A stretch of DNA of 64,000 nucleotides, from positions 59,520,212 to 59,584,211 of the forward strand of contig CM069870.1 of the NCBI GenBank assembly GCA_036172665.1, written 5' to 3'. This document shows, one piece after another, positions 6,256 to 51,881 of the stretch. Source of the stretch: Prosopocoilus inquinatus (Eukaryota > Arthropoda > Insecta > Coleoptera > Lucanidae). Position 1 is the stretch's first letter. Every line of letters starts with the position of its first letter. Both the position numbers and the translations under genes were made by a program. The notes under the pieces are model-generated. The model was not told the origin of the DNA. It searched no databases and worked only from the letters and a program-made list of their open reading frames with translations.

Positions 6256-7645
6256 AATAATAATAATAATAATCACAGATTCACAATCACAGTCACAAAT
6301 CGGTGCAAGACCATACTATTCGTAACGATATTAAAGCTTTTTCCTATCAATCACTTCGTGTACTTTCAATCGAGGTAAAGTTAATAACCATTCCTTCAGA
6401 TGTTTTTTTAATAATCCAATCGAGTTAATCATTTTCATATCTCTGGGAACTTCATACTAGATTATGGTAGACAGGTATGTGAAACAAGGTTGCCCGGTGG
6501 TTTTAAAAACTTTAGGGATCTGTGCAATTCTTTCTTTTTGTCGTGTGTTATAAGAATGAGCAAATTTTGTTATTTTATTTTTGTGTTTAAAATTGTTTCT
6601 AAGAAAAATAATTGCCTGATATCTAAAATTGCAGAATCCTGAAAAAGTAGATACGAATATTCTTTTTTATATATAATTTTTAACAACCATTTTTGATTAA
6701 CTTCAACTCTTTTTGAATATTATTTGGCAACTCCTCACCAAACCAGAATATTGTAATTAAGATGCGATTGAATAAGAGAAAAATAAAGTATTCTCATTTG
6801 TTTTAAATCAAAAATTTTTCTATATAATTTAAAGCGAGGCAAAAGACTTCTTAGTTTTTTAACTACATAATCAGTGTGGAAGTTCCACCTTAAGTGTCTG
6901 TCGATAAAGATACCTAAGTATTTTATTCTATCTGAGGTTATTTGCATTGTTGTCTTATCTGATAATTAAATATCTAAAGAACTAAAGACATGCAAAGTAT
7001 CACTGTAACAGCAAATAGGTAAAAAAACTGTTTTTTTGTAATTTATTGTAAGTAATTTACTATTGAAAGAATTGATGAGATTAATGAAGTCCAGTTCAGC
7101 TTTTAATTTCAGATCTGCCCAGTTATTGCTTGTATAGACTATCGCGGTGTAGTCGGCATAACCAATAATTTTACCAACTGATGTTGAATTGAACAAATCG
7201 TTAATGTAGATGTTAAATAATGTGGGACCTAGTATTGTGCCTTGTGGTACTCCAAAACGGACAGGCCTTTCCGTCCTTAGATGATTATTGATAATAACTC
7301 GTTGTGTTATATGATTTAAATAGCTCTCCATTAGTTTTAGAGTAACACCGCGGAAAAAATACGGTCTTCTACAAATACGGTGATTCTAGTAGTTTTGAAT
7401 GGCTGACAGTGTCGAAAGCTTTTGCGAGATCTATAAAAATACAAATTGCTTTATTACCCTCGTCCATGGCTCTATAAATGTCTGCTACCAGGTCTGCAGA
7501 GGCGTCACTGGTTGAGATACCTTCCTTAAAACCATAATGCCATTCAGACAAGATGTTAAATTTATTAACAAAATCGACGATACGAAGTTTTAATATCTTT
7601 TCAAAAATTTTTGATACATTACTAAGAAGGGGGATCGGATTAATT
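6256..7645 (-). pseudogene. 5'-truncated non-LTR retrotransposon (RT to 3' tail)
   Basis: On the minus strand this reads as the reverse-transcriptase half and C-terminus of a CR1/Jockey-like ORF2. In order: SEWHYGFKEGISTSDA (finger), IFIDLAKAFDTVSH (first catalytic Asp), FGVPQGTILGPTLFNIYIND, GYADYTAIV, IKYLGIFIDRHLRW (thumb) and SHLNYNILVW. The C-terminus continues in other frames to about 6360 with an NTRQK-like and ending VFKTTGQPCFTYL. The active-site box reads YADY where YADD is expected, so the second catalytic aspartate is lost, and there are several frameshifts. The 3' end is an (ATT)n tail (plus-strand AAT repeat at 6256-6274), typical of this group. The 5' break near 7645 is abrupt, as after incomplete target-primed reverse transcription. 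Confidence 0.85.
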
Positions 7646-30069: not shown

Positions 30070-31361
30070 CGTGGGCTGCTAGAAAAGTTTCTGGAAACGC
30101 TATGAAAAAACGCATATGAAATTTGGTAAACGGTATCATTGTTTCTCGAAGTATTCGCCTTTGACGTCAATACACTTTTGCATACGCTCGAACCAATTTC
30201 TAAAGCACGTTTTCCACTCTAAAGATGGTACCTCAGAAACCAGTGTCCGAAATGTTTCAACCGCTGCTTCAGCCGACGAAAATCGCTCACCACGCATTTT
30301 ATTTTTGATATTTGGTTACAAAAAGAAATCATTAGGTGATGATTCAGGTGAATTTGGACAATGAGTTATTAATTTAACATTTTTGTTGGACAAAAAATCA
30401 ACTGTTTGACGGGTTGAGTGAGAGCTGGCGTTGTCATGATGGAGAATAATTCGTCGATTTCGGTTGTTTCTTCTTATTTGCTCGATGACTTCCGGCATAG
30501 AAATCGTAGTATACCAATCAGCATTCACGGTTTTTCGATCCTCTAAAGCCACGGTTGCTACATGTCCAGTTAAACCAACAAAATAAGCAATCATTTGCTT
30601 CGCAGCACTGCGTGAACGGACAACTTTTGTTGGTTTTGGTTCATTTTGAAATACCCAAACGGTAGATTGTCGTTTACTTTCTGGCTCGTACGAATAGATC
30701 CACGTTTCGTCACCAGTAACGATGTTATAAACTAAATTTGAACGACCTCCATTGAATTTCTTGAGCATTTCTTCGCACCATTTGACACGACCCTGCTTTT
30801 GCGCTTCTGTTAAATTGTGTGGGATCCAACGACTGCAAAGCTTTCGTACGTTCAAATGATCACGCAAAATCTGGTGTATTGCTTTCATGTCAATGCGTAA
30901 GGATACTTGAATCTAACGGTGTGTCACATGTCGATCTGGCTCAAGCATTTCACGCACAGCATCTACATTAGTGGCAACAACAGAAGTTGATGGACGACCT
31001 TCACTAAATTCGTCACTGAGAGAGGTAGGTCCACGCTGGAATTCGGCAAACCAATTATAAATACTGCTCGTTGATGGTGCTTCATCTCCAAAAGCCAAAT
31101 GAAGCCGATCAAGGCATTGTTTCGGCGCTAGACCACATTTGAAATCGTAAAAAATCATGGCACGAACATTTTCACGCGAGATTTCCATGTTTACACAAAA
31201 TTATTTTTTCTCAAATACTGTACAAACAAAACTAGTTCACTTGGATAGGAATTGTCAATAAAATTATAGGCGAAAAACGTCAAATTTTTCAAATATGACA
31301 GTTGATAAACGCTAACAATTCTAGATCTACTAGATTTCAGGAAATTTTCCAGCAGCCCACG
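30070..31361 (-). mobile_element. Mariner transposon, near full length
   Basis: 1292 bp, the usual mariner size. Terminal inverted repeats begin CGTGGGCTGCTAGAAAAGTT (left) and CGTGGGCTGCTGGAAAATTT (right, reverse complement). TA duplications at 30,068-30,069 and 31,362-31,363. One transposase reading frame runs minus across most of the element. Confidence 0.93.
30136..31188 (-). pseudogene. Mariner transposase with two nonsense codons
   Basis: A single reading frame of 350 codons plus stop is interrupted by only two in-frame stops: TAG at about 30,911 after RHVTHR and TAA at about 30,313 after NDFFL. The N-terminus (MEISRENVRAMIFYDFKCG) has the helix-turn-helix region with SIYNWFAEFQRG. The catalytic domain shows TGDETWIYSYEPESKRQS, HHDNASSHSTRQTVDFL and SPNDFFL, so all three aspartates of the DD34D triad are visible. 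The usual SPDLAP before the third Asp reads SPESSP. The tail continues in frame (ERFSSAEAAVETFRTL) and ends FEKQ. Without the two stops the length would be normal; no frameshift is needed. It cannot make full transposase as it stands. Confidence 0.92.
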
Positions 31362-38315: not shown

Positions 38316-40414
38316 TAAGCTTAGGATAATTATGCATCAAAAAACTTCAAAATATGCATGCACATATGCAATAAAATCATCAAAAATATGCACTTAAATT
38401 TGCATTAAAAATTAACTTTTATAGAATAAATAATATTTTTTATGTTACCACATTCTTCATTATTTTGCTACAAAAAAACAAAAACTTTTTTTTAATTCTA
38501 AATTATTTATTTAGTCGTTATTATAGAAACAAATTATAAATACATTTAACTACAACATGGTGTAACAAATTCTCAAAAGTAAATTTGCGCCTATTGTCGG
38601 CGAGAATATTTTTGTACTGAGAAAACACTCTCTCGACATCGCAGGACACTATTGGTACAAATTCGTATTTTACAACGTCATTGACACTTAAATGTTCGTT
38701 TTTTTCATTAAGGGTCGATTCATTTTGCAACACTTCACTTATATTCTTCAGTTGCTGATAGCCCGTATTCTTTGACAGCACATCGTTTAATTTATTGATA
38801 AAAACATTTTTCTTGAGTTTTGCTAAACCGTTAACTACATGTTCTACTATTTGAATGCTTTCTTGTAAAGATAGACCCTTAGCTTCTAGCTTGGAGATTG
38901 CACTCGAAATGCATGCCAGATTAGCTCGAATAAAAATTAAATCTTCTCGAATACCTTTTTTTCTCAGAATACTCTGTGCTTCTTCGATGCACTGCGCTTC
39001 CTCAGAGTCGAATTCATCAACAATTTTCTTCGCTATTTCAAAATTTTCAGCGTAATACACAGCAGCGTCGATCCTACTTCCCCATCTTGTAATGATTGGC
39101 GCAGGTGGAAGTGGAATGTCACCCGAAATTTCCCGAAACTTCTGAATACGACTTGGTGCCTTAAGGAAAATCTTTTTCACAGATGATATTAGCACATTAA
39201 CATTTGAATAAAGATTACGAACTAAATCAGCTACTCGATGTAAGCCATGTGCTAAACAGGTCACATGTATCATGTTTGGGTATAAAACCTGCAATCCCGG
39301 CATTGTTTTGCACATATATGGTGCAGCATCACTACAAACCGCTAGCACTTTTTCATATAAAATTCCAGACGGCCACAATAAACTTAAAGAATCGTTGAAA
39401 AAAGCAGCGACTGTTGAATGATTTACTTTGTCCAACTCTTTTAAAGTCAGCAGATATGATTTATTTTTTTCTTCAGGAACCCCTAATATACCAAACACAA
39501 AATTTCCTATGCATCTTTGTTCTTCATCGGTTGTTTCATCCAACGACACCCAAATAGAATGATCCTTTATTTTTGCTCTTAATTTATCCAATGTTAATGT
39601 ATACAATTCAGAAACATAATTATTTCTTAATGTCGATTCATCTGGAATATTTTGCTTTGTATACTTTTCCAAAAAATGGCAAAGAACTTCATTTTTTAAC
39701 TTAGCTAATGGGATGTCTGCGCAACTAAAAGCCTTACAAAGTTCTGCATTGAATTCTGAACGTTTAGGTCCAGGCGTCGGTAAATTAGAAATTAACACTT
39801 GCCGTTCGTTATTTCCCCTTTTGCGATTTTTGTTACTTGCATGCTTTCCGGTTTGAAGATGCTGCGTGACTTGAAACTTTTTGGTTGCCGTAACATGAAC
39901 CTCGCAGTATTTACAAAATAACAGACGCCCATCCGTTATAAAATCATCGTAGTCCTTCACAAACTGGTTTAAAATTGCACACACTTACACACTTTTTTTC
40001 TTTTGGAATCTTGAGAGATGTTAATCCTATTGCAATCAGCATACAACTACTGAAGGATGATGAAATTTTCTGCAGAATTTCCTGGTAAAATTAGAAAGAG
40101 AGCTACCCCATACTTGGAAATTCGTGGGATAATGTGCGGTCGCAGTAAACAATGGCGGTTTTCATACACTGTTAATCCTCTTATTATTTCCAAGTATTCT
40201 GATTTTGAAACACTGGTTGTTCAAATTGTCTGCTATAAAATGTCAGTTAGCACTTGGCAATAAGAAATAATCGCAAATTTGCAATTAAAACAAAAAACTG
40301 CAGGAAATTATGCATTAATGCCCTAAAAAGTTAAAATATGCATTTATGTATACAAATGTTCCAAATATGCATTTGCATATGCAATTATGCAAAGGCATAA
40401 TTATCCTAAGCCTA
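38316..40414 (-). mobile_element. hAT transposon with perfect 8-bp target duplication
   Basis: 2099 bp. The left end TAAGCTTAGGATAATTATGC and the right end (reverse complement) TAGGCTTAGGATAATTATGC form the inverted repeats. Both ends are flanked by GTGATGAG (38,308-38,315 and 40,415-40,422). Subterminal regions on both sides are full of ATATGCA/TGCATAT words, likely transposase-binding repeats. A long uninterrupted transposase frame fills the element. Perfect duplication plus intact ORF suggests a recent insertion. Confidence 0.95.
38521..39984 (-). CDS. hAT transposase, CGGBP1-like family, intact ORF
   Basis: 487 codons without interruption. The N-terminus has a BED-like zinc finger with Cys24, Cys27, His42 and His48. 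The family signature TRWGSRIDAAVYYAENFEI and LKAPSRIQKF are present; I recognise the arrangement from CGG-repeat-binding-protein-like hAT proteins, which derive from such transposases. Candidate RNase H-fold catalytic residues are Asp149 (WVSLDETTD), Asp219 (VCSDAAPYM) and Glu451 (SCDVERVFSQ); the CxxH motif is Cys243-His246 (VTCLAHGLHRV). The C-terminal dimerisation region is short but present. The ATG at 39,984 opens the protein a few residues before the zinc finger; the upstream sequence has no better start. The protein should bind the subterminal repeats and cut and paste this element and related MITEs; activity is inferred, not shown. Shorter than many hAT transposases, so an internal loss between the insertion domain and the C-terminus is possible. 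Confidence 0.92.
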   Translation of the reverse strand: MCAILNQFVKDYDDFITDGRLLFCKYCEVHVTATKKFQVTQHLQTGKHASNKNRKRGNNERQVLISNLPTPGPKRSEFNAELCKAFSCADIPLAKLKNEVLCHFLEKYTKQNIPDESTLRNNYVSELYTLTLDKLRAKIKDHSIWVSLDETTDEEQRCIGNFVFGILGVPEEKNKSYLLTLKELDKVNHSTVAAFFNDSLSLLWPSGILYEKVLAVCSDAAPYMCKTMPGLQVLYPNMIHVTCLAHGLHRVADLVRNLYSNVNVLISSVKKIFLKAPSRIQKFREISGDIPLPPAPIITRWGSRIDAAVYYAENFEIAKKIVDEFDSEEAQCIEEAQSILRKKGIREDLIFIRANLACISSAISKLEAKGLSLQESIQIVEHVVNGLAKLKKNVFINKLNDVLSKNTGYQQLKNISEVLQNESTLNEKNEHLSVNDVVKYEFVPIVSCDVERVFSQYKNILADNRRKFTFENLLHHVVVKCIYNLFL

Positions 40415-45869: not shown

Positions 45870-46890
45870 GTGGCTGGAGGTAGCCTATTCACCAAAATAG
45901 CCACTTCTGTATACAGGGATTTTGAAATGCGAAGTATGTTCACGACTGATCAATTAAGGAATCAATTCTTTAACTGGGCTTCAGTTAACAGAAGAATTTT
46001 CTTATTGAAATGCAAGAGAAGAGAAATTTTTACAAACCACATCACTAATGGTATCAAGAACATTACTTCATTAATTCAATCGGACAGTAGTTTATCGGGA
46101 CAAAACGACAATTTCAATATCAGGTTAAGGAAGAAAATTCTTAACTTAGAAATTAAAATTACTTGCAATGAAATTTTTAAATTGAATCAAAAGTTGAAAA
46201 TAGTTTTTCTAGAAGTTAAAGATTTAATTACAAATGAAACTTACATGAATTTTCTCAATATCAAAATTCTTTTTATAATAAAAAAAATTCAAAGAAATTA
46301 AGGATAGTAACATTCGAAAATTCAATAAGTTGAAATCTGATCAAATTCTTAAAAGTTGATTCTAATTGGTTTTAAAATATAAGCTCTACTAACATTCAAC
46401 CTGAATTTTCGATTTTTTTTGCACTTGGAAAAAAATTTTGCATTACTCCTTCACTTATTGATGTTCAGATAAAGAAATGAGAATCTATCATTTCCTGTCA
46501 TGAGGAAAAAGGTCGTAGTCATCTTAGGTCACTTTTAACTAACATAATCACTAATTATGTACCTAAGAAGAATCAAAATGATAATTCTAATTTAAGACAA
46601 GTTTACTATGATTGTAAGAAATTTTTAAAAGAAAATATCAATTAACTATTAATAAAATCAGATAAAGGTAATGTGACAGTTGCTTTAAACAAAGATGATT
46701 ACGTTAATAAATCTTTGGATTTGTTAAATAATGTCAACTATTATCAATCAGATTTTAAAAAGAGACCCTACTGGTTCATTTGAAAAGAAAGCCAATCAAA
46801 TTATTTCTGAATTAAAGACTGTTAATATGATAGGCGAAGAGACAGCTAAGTCATTAAAGAATTATTCCTCTTGTTATCCAAGATATTATG
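45870..46890 (+). pseudogene. PLE protein, N-terminal region and RT fingers
   Basis: An open frame of 143 codons from 45,870 (MAGGSLFTKIATSVYRDFEM) gives the lysine-rich N-terminal region. After several stops, LIKSDKGNVTVALNKDDY (near 46,650), FEKKANQIISELKTV and NYSSCYPRYYG (ending at the retrozyme insertion) are the conserved PLE RT fingers leading to the GLPKIHK motif, whose remainder follows the insertion. Confidence 0.85.
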
Positions 46891-47073
46891 AACATATAAA
46901 ATAGCGACATCTTACTATCGCTTTTTGACCTAACATTGCAGTAGGATAGACAATTGAAGCGGGATTTGCTCCTAATGAGTCCCCCATGCAAGGCGGCCAT
47001 GCTTGCTGTCAAAGCATAATGAAAGATTTTAGAAAAATTTTTGTGCAAATCGTTTTTGATTGCAGTGAGAACC

Positions 47074-47138
47074 TCGAGCAGCCTCTGGACAGCTGTTTCA
47101 GCCCTGCTTGGGGCTTCTTCAGCAGAAACGTAGCTCGA
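47074..47138 (-). ncRNA. Type I hammerhead ribozyme, retrozyme unit 1
   Basis: Reverse complement of the plus-strand copy at 47,553-47,617 with the same core (CTGAAGA, GAAA, GTC) and helices. The predicted cut lies between plus positions 47,088 and 47,087. Confidence 0.88.
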
Positions 47139-47385
47139 CATTCCCACTGCAGACCAAAAACGACTTGCCCAATTTATTCGCAAATGCGATGTAAGAATGA
47201 TGAACATATAAAATAGCGACATCTTACTATCACTTTTTGACCTAACATTGCAGTAGAATAGACAAATTGAAGCGGGATTTGCTCCTAATGAGTCCCCCAT
47301 GCAAGGCGGCCATGCTTGCTGTCAAAGCATAATGAAAGATTTTAGAAAAAATTTGTGCAAATCGTTTTTGATTGCAGTGAGAACC

Positions 47386-47450
47386 TCGAGCAGCCTCTGG
47401 ACAGCTGTTTCAGCCCTGCTTGGGGCTTCTTCAGCAGAAACGTAGCTCGA
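47386..47450 (-). ncRNA. Type I hammerhead ribozyme, retrozyme unit 2
   Basis: Second minus-strand copy, 312 bp from the first, with the full core and all helices. The predicted cut lies between 47,400 and 47,399. Confidence 0.88.
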
Positions 47451-47552
47451 CATTCCCACTGCAGACCAAAAACGCTATTTTATATGTTCATCATTCTTAC
47501 ATCGCATTTGCGAATAAATTGGGCAAGTCGTTTTTGGTCTGCAGTGGGAATG

Positions 47553-47617
47553 TCGAGCTACGTTTCTGCTGAAGAAGCCCCAAGCAGGGCTGAAACAGCT
47601 GTCCAGAGGCTGCTCGA
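47553..47617 (+). ncRNA. Type I hammerhead ribozyme, inverted unit
   Basis: CTGAAGA 47,569-47,575; stem II AGCCC/GGGCT with a CAAGCA loop; GAAA 47,592-47,595; self-complementary stem III CAGCTG; cleavage triplet GTC 47,601-47,603. Stem I: TTCTG/CAGAG next to the core (one G-U), then an asymmetric internal loop, then TCGAGC/GCTCGA. Every conserved core position is present. The internal loop of stem I and loop II are placed as in natural hammerheads that use tertiary contacts. Confidence 0.9.
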
Positions 47618-47657
47618 GGTTCTCACTGCAATCAAAAACGATTTGCACAAAAATTTT

Positions 47658-48555
47658 TCCAAGATATTATGGTTTACCTAAAATTCATAAACCAATGTTG
47701 GCTCTACGTCCTGTCATATCTTCTATTAATTCACCAAATAGTAATTTATCAAAATTTATTACTGAAATATTAACCAATGCTTATAATAAAAGTAATAAAT
47801 TTTATGTTCAAGATTCATTTGAATTTTCTGAATTTGCAAACAACAGATTAGTCCCGATTAATTATGTAATTATTAGTCTAGATGTTGTTTTACTTTTTAC
47901 CAACATACCTTTAGATTTATTCTTACAAAGTATTGAAAAAAAACTGGGAACAAATATCTTTGGTAAGCAACTTATCAAAAGAAAAATTAATAATAATAAT
48001 TAAATTTCTTTTTGATTCAACTTATTTCAAATTCAATAATATTTATTTATTATTATTTTATAAACAAATTCTTGGAACAGCTATGGGTGCTAATATATCT
48101 CCAATAATTGCTCAATATGTTATGGATGATCTATTAAATGAATGCATACCAAAGTTATCATTTGAAATTCCTTTTTTTAACAATTATAATCCTAATATTC
48201 AATTTACTATTGAAAAAGAAACAGAAAGGAGTGTTCCTTTCTTGGAAACGAAAGTTATTCGTTCAGAAAGCAATACAATAATTATTGATTGGTACACGAA
48301 ACCTATTAGTTCTGGGCGTTATATTAACTTTCATTCTTGTCATCCATATAAAATGAAAATTAACATGATTTTAGGATTAAAAAATCGTATAGAAAAGATT
48401 TCTCATCCTTCTTTGTTGAATAAAAACTTACACAAATTAAAAAATATTCTCATAAAAAATAGCTATCCTATTGCAATGCTAAATAAATTAATTTTCAATA
48501 CTCAACAAAGAATAGAACCCATTTCTTAAATTAATAATAATTCACAAACAATTAA
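47658..48555 (+). pseudogene. PLE reverse transcriptase core, lacking the YVDD segment
   Basis: In plus frames: GLPKIHKPMLALRPVISSIN, the RT motif NYVIISLDVVLLFTNIPLD (first catalytic Asp), a frameshift near 47,960, then ILGTAMGANISPIIAQYVMD, IPFFNNYNPNIQFTIEKE, SVPFLETKVIRS, DWYTKPISSGRYINFHSCHP and KNSYPIAMLNKLIFNTQQR. PLEs normally carry a [FY]xDD active-site box between the IPFF and the NxYNPxIQF segments. Here IPFF runs directly into NNYNPN, so about 25-30 residues with the active site appear to be missing in frame. Otherwise the order is normal. Confidence 0.9.
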
Positions 48556-48800
48556 TAATAATAATAATAATATGTCTTTATTCTCCAATTTCCATAGCAT
48601 ATTAGAATTACAAGATCATAATATAATAAATATAATAAACTAGGAATTGGAAAAATCTAAAGGCGAAGTTCAGATTGGCAGTAGGAAGCCACTACCGTCT
48701 GCTCTTCCACTCAAGCCTTTTTTTGTAGAATGAAATGTATCTTTTAGAGATAAATTAAACAAAAAAAAAATCAATTGGGGGAAAAAATAAAGAAATAAGT
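48556..48800 (-). mobile_element. 3' end of a 5'-truncated non-LTR element
   Basis: On the minus strand: GAGTGGAAGAGCAGACGGTA, CTTCGCCTTTAGA, then AATAAAGACATATT followed by (ATT)n at 48,556-48,571. This is the 3' UTR and microsatellite tail style of CR1/Jockey-like elements. No coding part remains. It borders the tail of the larger element at 48,801. Confidence 0.6.
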
Positions 48801-49118: not shown

Positions 49119-51881
49119 TCAATTTTTTTTTAATGCTTCTCTAGAAAGAAGTTTTAAACAAGGCGGGACAGCATTATAAATTTTAGATACATTGTAAGAA
49201 AAACATCTCTCGTAAAAAACGGTGTGATGTTTAGGTGGTGTTATTAATCCCTTGTTTCTAATGTTTATATTATGAACATCGGTTCTGAATTTTATTTTTT
49301 CGTGCAAATAAGTCGGTATACTACTTGTAATTATATTATGATACAGACATGCCGTCTGAAATAAGTATCTGTTCCTCATGTTCAGCCAGCCTAACTCGAC
49401 AAGCTTATGACATATATGATCAAATTTTCTTAACCCAAATATGTATCTTAAGCAAGAGTTCTTTGAATTCGGTTTTGGTCACGGACATCAATGGCCGGAC
49501 CATAAACAGAAATACAGTAAGTAAAGTGAGATAACACTAACGTATTACACAACAGCGTTTTTATTTTTCTGGACAAGTAATGGCGATGAGGATAAATAAC
49601 TTTCAAGCTGCTATATGCCCGGCTAATATATTTTGACACCTGAGATTTAAATCTGAATTCATTATCCATTACTACTCCTAAGTTCTTCGTGCTTTCAACG
49701 AAAGGTATGGTTTCGGTACCAATACGTAAACTTAAATATCGTTGAACGTTACTACAATAGTTTTTTTCTACCGAAGAGTAAGGCTACGGTTTTAGAAGCG
49801 CTGATATTTAATAAGTGTTTGGAACAAGCAGAAGCAACTCTGTTTAAGTCATTATTAATGTTTACCATGGTCTCGTGAAGTAGTTCTTTATTGAAAGTGT
49901 ACAAGAGCTGCGTGTCATCTGCGTACATAAAGATTTTGCAATGTTCAACAGACGAAAATAAATCCGAGGTATACATTGCAAACAAGAGAGGTCCCAAAAC
50001 TGAACCTTGCGGAACACCTCTTAATAAATTTATGGTTGATGATAATTGATTTTTCAGTCTCACACGCTGAGTTCTAACAGTAAGATAGCTTTTTAATAAG
50101 TTGACTGCATTTCTTGTTAAACCAAAGTAGTGTAAAATGGATAGCATAGTATTATAATCGATCGTATCAAACGCCTTACTAAGATCAAGAAGAATTAATA
50201 AGGATAGCTTCTGTTTATCGGTAGCATTTATTATGTCATCGGTAACGTTCATTAGTGTTGTAGCACAACTATGACCCGGGCGGAATCCAGACTGAAATAC
50301 CGGTAATATGTTATAAGTTTTTATATGTTCTCTAAGCTGCATAGCTATAATTTTTTCTAGAACTTTTGACAAAACTGGAAGTAAGCTTATAGGTCTTAAG
50401 TCGTTGTATAGTGTTGGACTAGTTTTCTTTGGTATAGGAACAATAATTGCTTCTTTCCAAGACGTAGGAAATTTATTATCTAAGATACAGCTATTGATAA
50501 TATTTGTGATAAACGGAAAGATAAACGGACAACATAATTTAATCATGTGCATGCTCAGATTCTCACAACCACATGAAGCAACGTTAATTCTATTAAGAAT
50601 TCTTCCAACCGTGGCTACATCGACTAAATGAAATTCGAAGACAGAGCCAATGTCGTTCTTAGTGTGACTATTGTAAAAATCAAGTAAACTTTCGTCAGGC
50701 GTGTTTACAACCGGGATGTTATTGGTGAAAAAGTCATTAATTTCATTACCATTTTGAAGATGAGCAGGGATTTCAATATTTTGAGGTGGTTTTAATTGGA
50801 GAGACTTTAATTGTTTCCAAATCAATTTAGAGTTGTTAGAAGAAAGCTTATACTCAAAATACGCTTTTTTCTCATTGCGGATACTTGTGGTAGTTAAGTT
50901 TCGCAATGATTTATGGTATTCCCAATCGGTTGTTAATTTTGTTCTTTTAAACTTCGCCTTCGCTTTATCACGCAGGGACATGAGGAGTTTAATGTTGTCG
51001 GTAAGCCATGGACTAAAGGGTTTACTAATTCTTACAGTTTTAGTTGGAGCGTATATGTTAAATAATTCAATTACAAGGCTGGTTAAGAACTGCACTTTAT
51101 CATCCACGCTATCTAATCTATATAAACGATGGAGAGGTAACGATTGAAAGTGATTTAAAAATTTATCATGATCAAAATAACTAAAATCACGGCAGGTTCT
51201 ATAAATTGTATTAGCTTTGTTTTTAGCAATTAACCATTCGAAAAATACTAAATCATGATCAGAGATATGGACATCTCGAGAACCAAAGTTGCGTATTAAG
51301 GATGAATCTGAAATTATAATTAAGTCTAACAGGGTAGAGATATGCTCAGTAATCCTAGTAGGTGTGCCGAGCACCTGCTTAACACCAACAGCATTCATCA
51401 TTTCGGTCAAATACACAGACTGTGGCATTTCAGGTCTCAACAAGTCGATATTAAGATCACCGAGGCACATCAATGAGGCAGACACTATATTGCAGGTAGC
51501 AATAGAAGATTCCAACTCGTCTACAAATACTTTATAATTAAAAGTGGGTGGTCTGTAGACAACTCCAAGAGCATAAGTGTTGGAATGTATGTGAAAATTA
51601 AGCCAAAGTTGTTCGATTACATCACCTGTTTCAATTATTTCGTACCGAAGAGAATCGGAGATGTAGAAACAAAGTCCACCACCACGTACGCTATCACCTT
51701 GAGCGCAACGATCTCTTCTCTCGAAAACATAGCCTTCAATTTTAAGAACAGCATTGTCAATGGCAGGTGTCAGCCAGGTCTCAGAAACTGCTGTAACATC
51801 ATACTTAAATTCCAAAATGTGGGTTTTTAATAAGTCAAAATGACCTAAAATTGACCGAACATTTATGTGTGCGACTTTCAT
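49119..51881 (-). pseudogene. Non-LTR ORF2: AP endonuclease and reverse transcriptase, two frameshifts
   Basis: The main frame gives 709 residues. The AP-like endonuclease covers about 1-215: HINVRS, SETWL (33-37), GGGLCFYIS (68-75), GDLNID (141-146), SDHD (207-210), the metal- and DNA-binding motifs expected for target nicking. RT motifs follow: PTLYNDLRPISLLPVLSKVL, FQSGFRPGHSCATTL, LLDLSKAFDTID, RGVPQGSVLGPLLF and MYADDTQLL (active-site YADD at 653-656). The frame shifts at about 49,750 into SLRIGTETIPFVESTKNLGV and MDNEFRFKSQVSKYISRAY, then shifts back at about 49,450 into LRYIFGLRKFDHICHKLVEL and MRNRYLFQTACLYHNIITSS, ending at 49,119. Catalytic residues are intact; two small indels alone prevent a full product of about 920 residues. 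Confidence 0.92.

Follow-up and report, generated by a model that had tools for sequence, protein, structure and literature searches.

By what route does a non-coding retrozyme enter a chromosome, and which helper moves it? The question is raised by a 767-bp insertion at 46,891-47,657 of a 64,000-nucleotide stretch of the Prosopocoilus inquinatus genome (here called the window; GenBank assembly GCA_036172665.1, contig CM069870.1, positions 59,520,212 to 59,584,211), which carries hammerhead ribozyme motifs and sits inside a Penelope-like element (PLE). Animal retrozymes have been proposed, in the accessible parts of the papers concerned, to be circles copied by an unidentified helper (PMC7229834, PMC7761336), for which long interspersed nuclear elements (LINEs) or PLEs have been named as candidates (PMC7229834); according to the available text of a review, their repeats have no conserved motif that reveals this helper (PMC7761336). 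The scar left by the insertions described here supplies such a helper marker, in that a copy has two fixed starts and each arm takes one of them, an arrangement also found in PLEs. The element is a metazoan-type retrozyme, and its scar is of a new form that matches PLEs. We consider it probable that Penelope-like machinery moved the non-coding window retrozyme in a single insertion, with both target ends priming on one circular RNA.

The window insertion is flanked by an exact 14-bp target duplication, TCCAAGATATTATG (left copy 46,877-46,890, right copy 47,658-47,671), exceeding all 30 displaced-end controls at the locus, in which the longest duplication was 9 bp. Positions on the unit are numbered q1-q312 from the left end of this insertion, and strands are given for the ribozyme sense. 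Arm A (46,891-47,474, minus, 584 nt) has its cDNA start at q1 and holds a full 312-bp unit (46,891-47,202, minus) followed by a partial second unit of 272 nt (47,203-47,474, minus). Arm B (47,473-47,657, plus, 185 nt) is inverted, with its cDNA start at q144, and the two arms meet at 47,473-47,474 in a 2-nt overlap, CG, that joins q272 to q16. The direct repeats are spaced by 312 in two blocks and by 313 in one. An earlier note on this DNA, made from the letters alone, had placed the insertion at exactly these coordinates and described a 14-bp duplication, two tandem units with a 312-bp period and an inverted third. Its spacing and inversion stand; with 272 nt in the second unit and 185 nt in the inverted one, the insertion consists of one full and two partial units. 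The GC content of the unit is 0.433. The 148-aa frame across the insertion has no Pfam match and, judged by reverse transcriptase (RT) and GIY-YIG frames, the insertion is not an autonomous PLE. One ribozyme-sense frame is open all round the window unit (46,891-47,202, minus; 312 nt being 104 codons); it is absent from the other 14 of the 15 units tested, and no coding frame is conserved among them.

All three hammerhead cores in the insertion are intact and identical (CTGAAGA-AGCCC-(6)-GGGCT-GAAA-CAGCTG-TC), two on the minus strand (47,122-47,088 and 47,434-47,400) and one on the plus strand (47,569-47,603), which agrees with the three complete type I hammerheads of the earlier note. From the motif, cleavage is predicted between 47,088 and 47,087, between 47,400 and 47,399, and after 47,603. 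Because 312 nt separate the two minus-strand sites, cutting at both would free a 312-nt monomer from a minus-strand transcript of the left arm. With three mismatches allowed, the core pattern occurs exactly at these three places in 64 kb, versus 0.02 expected from shuffles, and thus exceeds chance. The Rfam model RF00163 (Hammerhead_1) reaches 23.8 bits (E 8e-4) in a 201-nt scan, under its gathering score of 34, and is not among the matches listed at E<=1 in an 8-kb scan. In the predicted fold, core 3 is surrounded by a long rod, an extended stem I at 47,529-47,647 (plus); the 119-nt ribozyme domain folds at -61.7 kcal/mol (z -8.0). Stem II of the window hammerhead is closed by A-U; the usual closing pair in hammerheads is G-C. 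Elsewhere in the genome, 51 of 67 hammerhead domains are intact, some of the 67 being antisense artefacts. At one locus (L011:1667-1813 and 2069-2215), the identical A>G change is found in both arms, within the conserved GAAA of the ribozyme core, and the template therefore probably had a damaged ribozyme.

Is the window copy one of a kind? The earlier note had taken it for a member of an insect retrozyme family and had proposed looking through the genome for further 312-bp copies with target duplications. When the genome assembly (G000; 650 Mb, 173 contigs) was searched, the window unit gave 93 listed matches from the best 40 of 128 candidates, and a unit of a second subfamily gave 101 matches from the best 40 of 1,711 first-look candidates. 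We examined 38 loci from the first list, 16 from the second (chosen from the match list before reading) and one window stretch. The result is a large dispersed family with many more copies that have their own duplications, which, together with the paired cleavage sites of the left arm, upholds the idea of a family. An insect family is also consistent with the 11 rows naming a species among 120 listed homologues of a PLE frame from this genome, all from beetle genera. With tandem units within 170-400 nt, a type I core, GC below 50%, duplications longer than 4 bp and dispersed copies, the element is a metazoan-type retrozyme, whose self-cleavage and circles are predictions from sequence. Four of the 38 loci (L014-L017), on different contigs, hold one and the same insertion with identical joins, which was therefore copied inside a larger repeat, and L046 is a copy of L045.

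The outer ends of these insertions fall into two classes, A near q1 and B near q140. Two-armed insertions run from plus units to minus units in the q numbering, that is, head-to-head, so that the ribozyme sense points outward on both arms. Among the 39 parsed first-set insertions, 30 are A/B, one is A/A and eight have an untyped end; in the 29 that have an exact duplication of 8 bp or more, the score is A/B for 28. Among the 28 is L045, which has a single arm and was left out of the two-armed tally. Another locus, L059, adds two A/B insertions with 12-bp duplications. In the second set, whose ends were typed by eye using the first-set ranges, 11 of 16 have a duplication of at least 12 bp, all above controls, and all 11 are A/B. 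Two-armed insertions whose exact duplication measures 8 bp or more therefore comprise 27 + 2 + 11 = 40 A/B cases plus L032, or 40 of 41 (binomial versus one half, 2e-11). Judged by ends alone, L073 and L076 each contain an A/B element as well, and L063, L065 and L070 are composite loci. The duplication score was above 30 displaced controls in 23 of 39 first-set insertions; several duplications that are short or of low complexity were not above controls, including, at 8 bp or more, those of L018a, L020, L021, L027, L032, L037 and L044. In the 30 insertions used for length, duplications measure 11-15 bp. From the duplications, target sites are AT-rich and roughly symmetric, with cuts mostly 12-14 bp apart and often just before GT. 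Terminal inverted repeats are absent because the two outer ends are different positions of the unit.

For the inner joins we used 29 two-armed A/B copies of the first set whose duplication is 7 bp or longer (with a mismatch in one case). Their A arms span 43-1,277 nt and their B arms 53-770 nt; nine A and 11 B arms are longer than one lap, with up to about four units per arm, and 21 A and 27 B arms cross the cleavage site. Simple joins make up 18 of the 29, with a mean overlap of 2.39 nt versus 0.71 expected. Several comparisons between arms fit the idea that one template served both. The two arms of L025 together hold six units, five of which show no difference over the 188-311 positions that they share; the sixth is different and perhaps older. 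Variants private to one insertion and common to its opposite arms were found in 7 of 34 cases (16 sites, nine of them in L018a), and the mean difference within insertions is 0.045 in the same arm and 0.046 across arms, versus 0.073 between insertions. Folded as a circle, the unit is predicted to form two rods, and in 13 units the start sites rank among the more weakly paired parts (A, percentiles 0.73-0.96; B, 0.70-0.95), so that on this prediction the starts would be weakly paired linkers of a circular RNA.

The PLEs of the same genome are built on the same plan. A search for PLE RT gave 254 matches from the best 150 of 2,959 candidates, and we studied three families: X (L051; L052-L056, which share flanks and were counted once; L058; L061), Y (L059, L060) and Z (six arrays). 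The outer ends of their arms differ by a tail of 33 nt in X, 30 nt in Y and 29 nt in Z, and wherever both ends of an event were seen, one was tailed and the other untailed (12/12). Head-to-head arms with two fixed ends are thus common to retrozymes (40/41) and PLEs (12/12). Single Y 3' ends were untailed in four cases and tailed in four. Target duplications were found in family X (e.g., GATACAGACACA) and in five of the six Z arrays (e.g., TTTAAAAATGTAAC, GATAATTTGTTG), with none found in the C6 array; those of family Y are hidden by (TA)n. Family Z is young, with 838-aa open frames and a GIY-YIG domain. Its array at C3:41905103-41934579 has five minus and then five plus copies, outward and about 2.8 kb apart, and that at C9:18125370-18138934 has two minus and then two plus copies, all outward. 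Among the 62 listed Z matches, adjacent pairs within 12 kb are divergent in seven cases, same-strand in 11 and convergent in none. The Z 3' region has a minimal hammerhead-like motif, read by eye and without an Rfam listing. One young PLE family appears to have the same |GT cut context as the retrozyme. The earlier note had suspected PLE machinery as the mover, and the shared insertion anatomy, with a target context apparently common to one PLE family, supports it. The two kinds of element also meet physically. The flanks at the ends of the C9:18125370 array (L093, L094) are retrozyme, the PLE sitting in a retrozyme unit near the A start with a 12-bp duplication, GCTATTTTTTAT. L059 contains a 6.1-kb PLE palindrome in which each arm has a retrozyme insertion (2051-2308 and 6501-6758) at the mirror-image position, adjoining the open-frame end.

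In the process that we favor, the unit would be transcribed in the ribozyme sense and the hammerhead would cut the transcript into 312-nt monomers to be ligated into circles, by analogy with other animal retrozymes. Each circle is predicted to fold as two rods linked by two weakly paired, AU-rich linkers. A PLE reverse transcriptase-endonuclease would cut both strands of an AT-rich site, the spacing and sequence of which are recorded in the duplications. The two target 3' ends would then prime on the same circle, each at its own linker, A (q about 1) for one end and B (q about 140) for the other; each arm does have its own fixed start, and both starts would lie on one molecule. Each cDNA would run from a fraction of a lap to four laps round the putative circle, as given by the arm lengths. 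The cDNA ends would be joined, often at 1-5 nt of microhomology, and overhang fill-in would yield the duplication, leaving a head-to-head element with both arms in outward ribozyme sense.

The same two-end PLE priming could have used linear multimeric transcripts of genomic arrays as its template. Tandem units in genomic copies make read-through multimers possible, multi-unit arms also occur in the PLE Z arrays, and the anole PLE used unprocessed RNA in vitro (PMC11167929). However, a multimer has several A and B linkers and should be cut by the hammerhead, and one circle more simply accounts for the one-A-one-B rule and for the repetition of a single sequence in L025. These points are not decisive, and we hold a linear template to be unlikely. 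A LINE as mover, with unusually frequent twin priming, is far less credible and we give it only a small chance. The genome is rich in LINEs (65 listed matches, from 63 of 11,374 candidates), and twin priming produces inverted arms in L1, but it would be expected to leave a variable second end, whereas both ends are fixed in the retrozyme. Adjacent LINE matches within 12 kb were on opposite strands in no case and on the same strand in two, a weak control that covers the orientations of listed matches only.

An inverted arm might also come from snap-back self-priming of a single cDNA, as proposed for Penelope on an antisense template in the accessible part of that paper (PMC3846280). Head-to-head inverted structures do exist, but the stopping points of the two arms are separated on the unit by 55 nt or more in the 18 simple first-set joins and by 27-139 nt in 10 second-set joins, and do not fall at a palindrome, which argues against snap-back, and so do outer starts that differ between arms; we think this very improbable. 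As for a DNA transposon or a foldback element resembling a miniature inverted-repeat transposable element, inverted arms and target duplications would fit it, but the differing outer ends leave no terminal inverted repeats, arm lengths, inner joins and duplication length (11-15 in 30) all vary, and its chance appears negligible.

Several observations weigh against a PLE-moved, circular retrozyme. L032 has a B end at one side, and its 8-bp duplication is doubtful in that it may be the element's own A/T run. Further exceptions to the A/B rule are the single arm of L045, the A/A ends without a clear duplication of L042b and one copy in L065, and the retrozyme beside a PLE in L060 (822-1205), which has outer ends at q150 and q136 and no clear duplication. 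Eleven of the 29 joins are not simple, having gaps or extra sequence. The nearest relative lies inside the same insertion for only 24 of 102 pieces, and gene conversion between the arms of a copy might look like descent from one template. When the ribozyme domain is folded without constraint, GCUG of the core pairs with the stem III CAGC, and this fold is favored over the active hammerhead by 6 kcal/mol; activity is therefore not assured, and cleavage may need dimers or co-transcriptional folding. Covariation gave no support beyond shuffles. The parallel with PLEs is also incomplete: the starts are about 140 nt apart in the retrozyme and 29-33 nt apart in PLEs, family X has the |GT context in one of six cases and does not share it with the retrozyme, family Y inserts in (TA)n, and no sequence similarity was found between retrozyme and PLE Z ends. 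Recognition of the retrozyme RNA by a PLE protein may be structural.

What, then, does the position of the window copy inside a PLE mean? The host is indeed a decayed PLE, of family X, with a tailed 3' end at 45,928-45,978 (minus), inverted relative to its own coding strand, and a decayed RT-coding part at 46,757-48,556 (plus) that is split by the retrozyme; along almost its entire length, the RT piece has matches of 93% and 83% among other PLE copies. The earlier note had seen in this nesting a link to the machinery of movement. That link is weak. Four PLE protein queries matched only two of 39 retrozyme stretches, the window (strongly) and L025 (weakly, E about 1e-9), and the position is therefore mostly incidental. 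Other elements of the window include a LINE frame of 709 aa (49,752-51,881, minus), which contains RT and an endonuclease match below threshold and has 65 listed matches in the genome. A 487-aa frame with DUF659 (38,521-39,984, minus) and a 190-aa frame with a partial Transposase_1 (30,316-30,888, minus), both below the Pfam cut-off, are likely DNA-transposon remnants.

The scar is a genomic footprint that fits the two-strand, internal-start chemistry of one PLE in vitro. In this system, from the anole, both strands are cleaved and extended, and synthesis begins at two sites within the PLE's own RNA, the start being the same for both strands and without homology to the cut DNA (PMC11167929). 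A one-end tail and head-to-head arms are known PLE traits in the accessible text of another study (PMC3846280). We found no description of head-to-head retrozyme insertions in the texts read, which come from a body of literature that lacks most subscription papers. Defined start sites make the idea of a circular template directly testable. More tentatively, and with less confidence than we place in the mechanism itself, retrozymes and hammerhead-bearing PLEs may share a mode of replication in which hammerhead-made RNA circles are copied by rolling-circle reverse transcription that begins at each of the two ends left by a symmetric double cut. If so, the tandem "pLTR" (pseudo-long terminal repeat) and head-to-head structure of PLEs would be a circular-template footprint, and retrozymes its minimal parasites.

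Among known systems, L1 twin priming is alike in that both target strands prime on one RNA and give inverted arms; it is occasional and has a variable second site, whereas here two-armed priming is the rule, with two fixed sites. The plant long terminal repeat (LTR) retrozymes, as far as the accessible texts describe them (PMC4918200, PMC7229834), are likewise non-autonomous and hammerhead-bearing, with a circular RNA model, but have type III hammerheads in LTRs, a primer-binding site and a polypurine tract, 4-bp duplications and Gypsy as the likely helper. Metazoan non-LTR retrozymes are closer, being non-coding tandem units of 170-400 nt with a type I hammerhead, GC below 50%, duplications longer than 4 bp and PLEs in the genome; in the parts of the paper available they are described as direct tandem repeats (PMC7229834), whereas the family studied here, with its putative RNA circles, has two fixed starts and head-to-head copies. 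Unlike the non-coding retrozyme, PLEs encode RT and GIY-YIG. Within the text available, they have a tail on one end only (PMC3846280), and both strands are cut and extended in vitro (PMC11167929). They share with the retrozyme its head-to-head arms, duplications, AT-rich targets and internal RT start (PMC3846280, PMC11167929).
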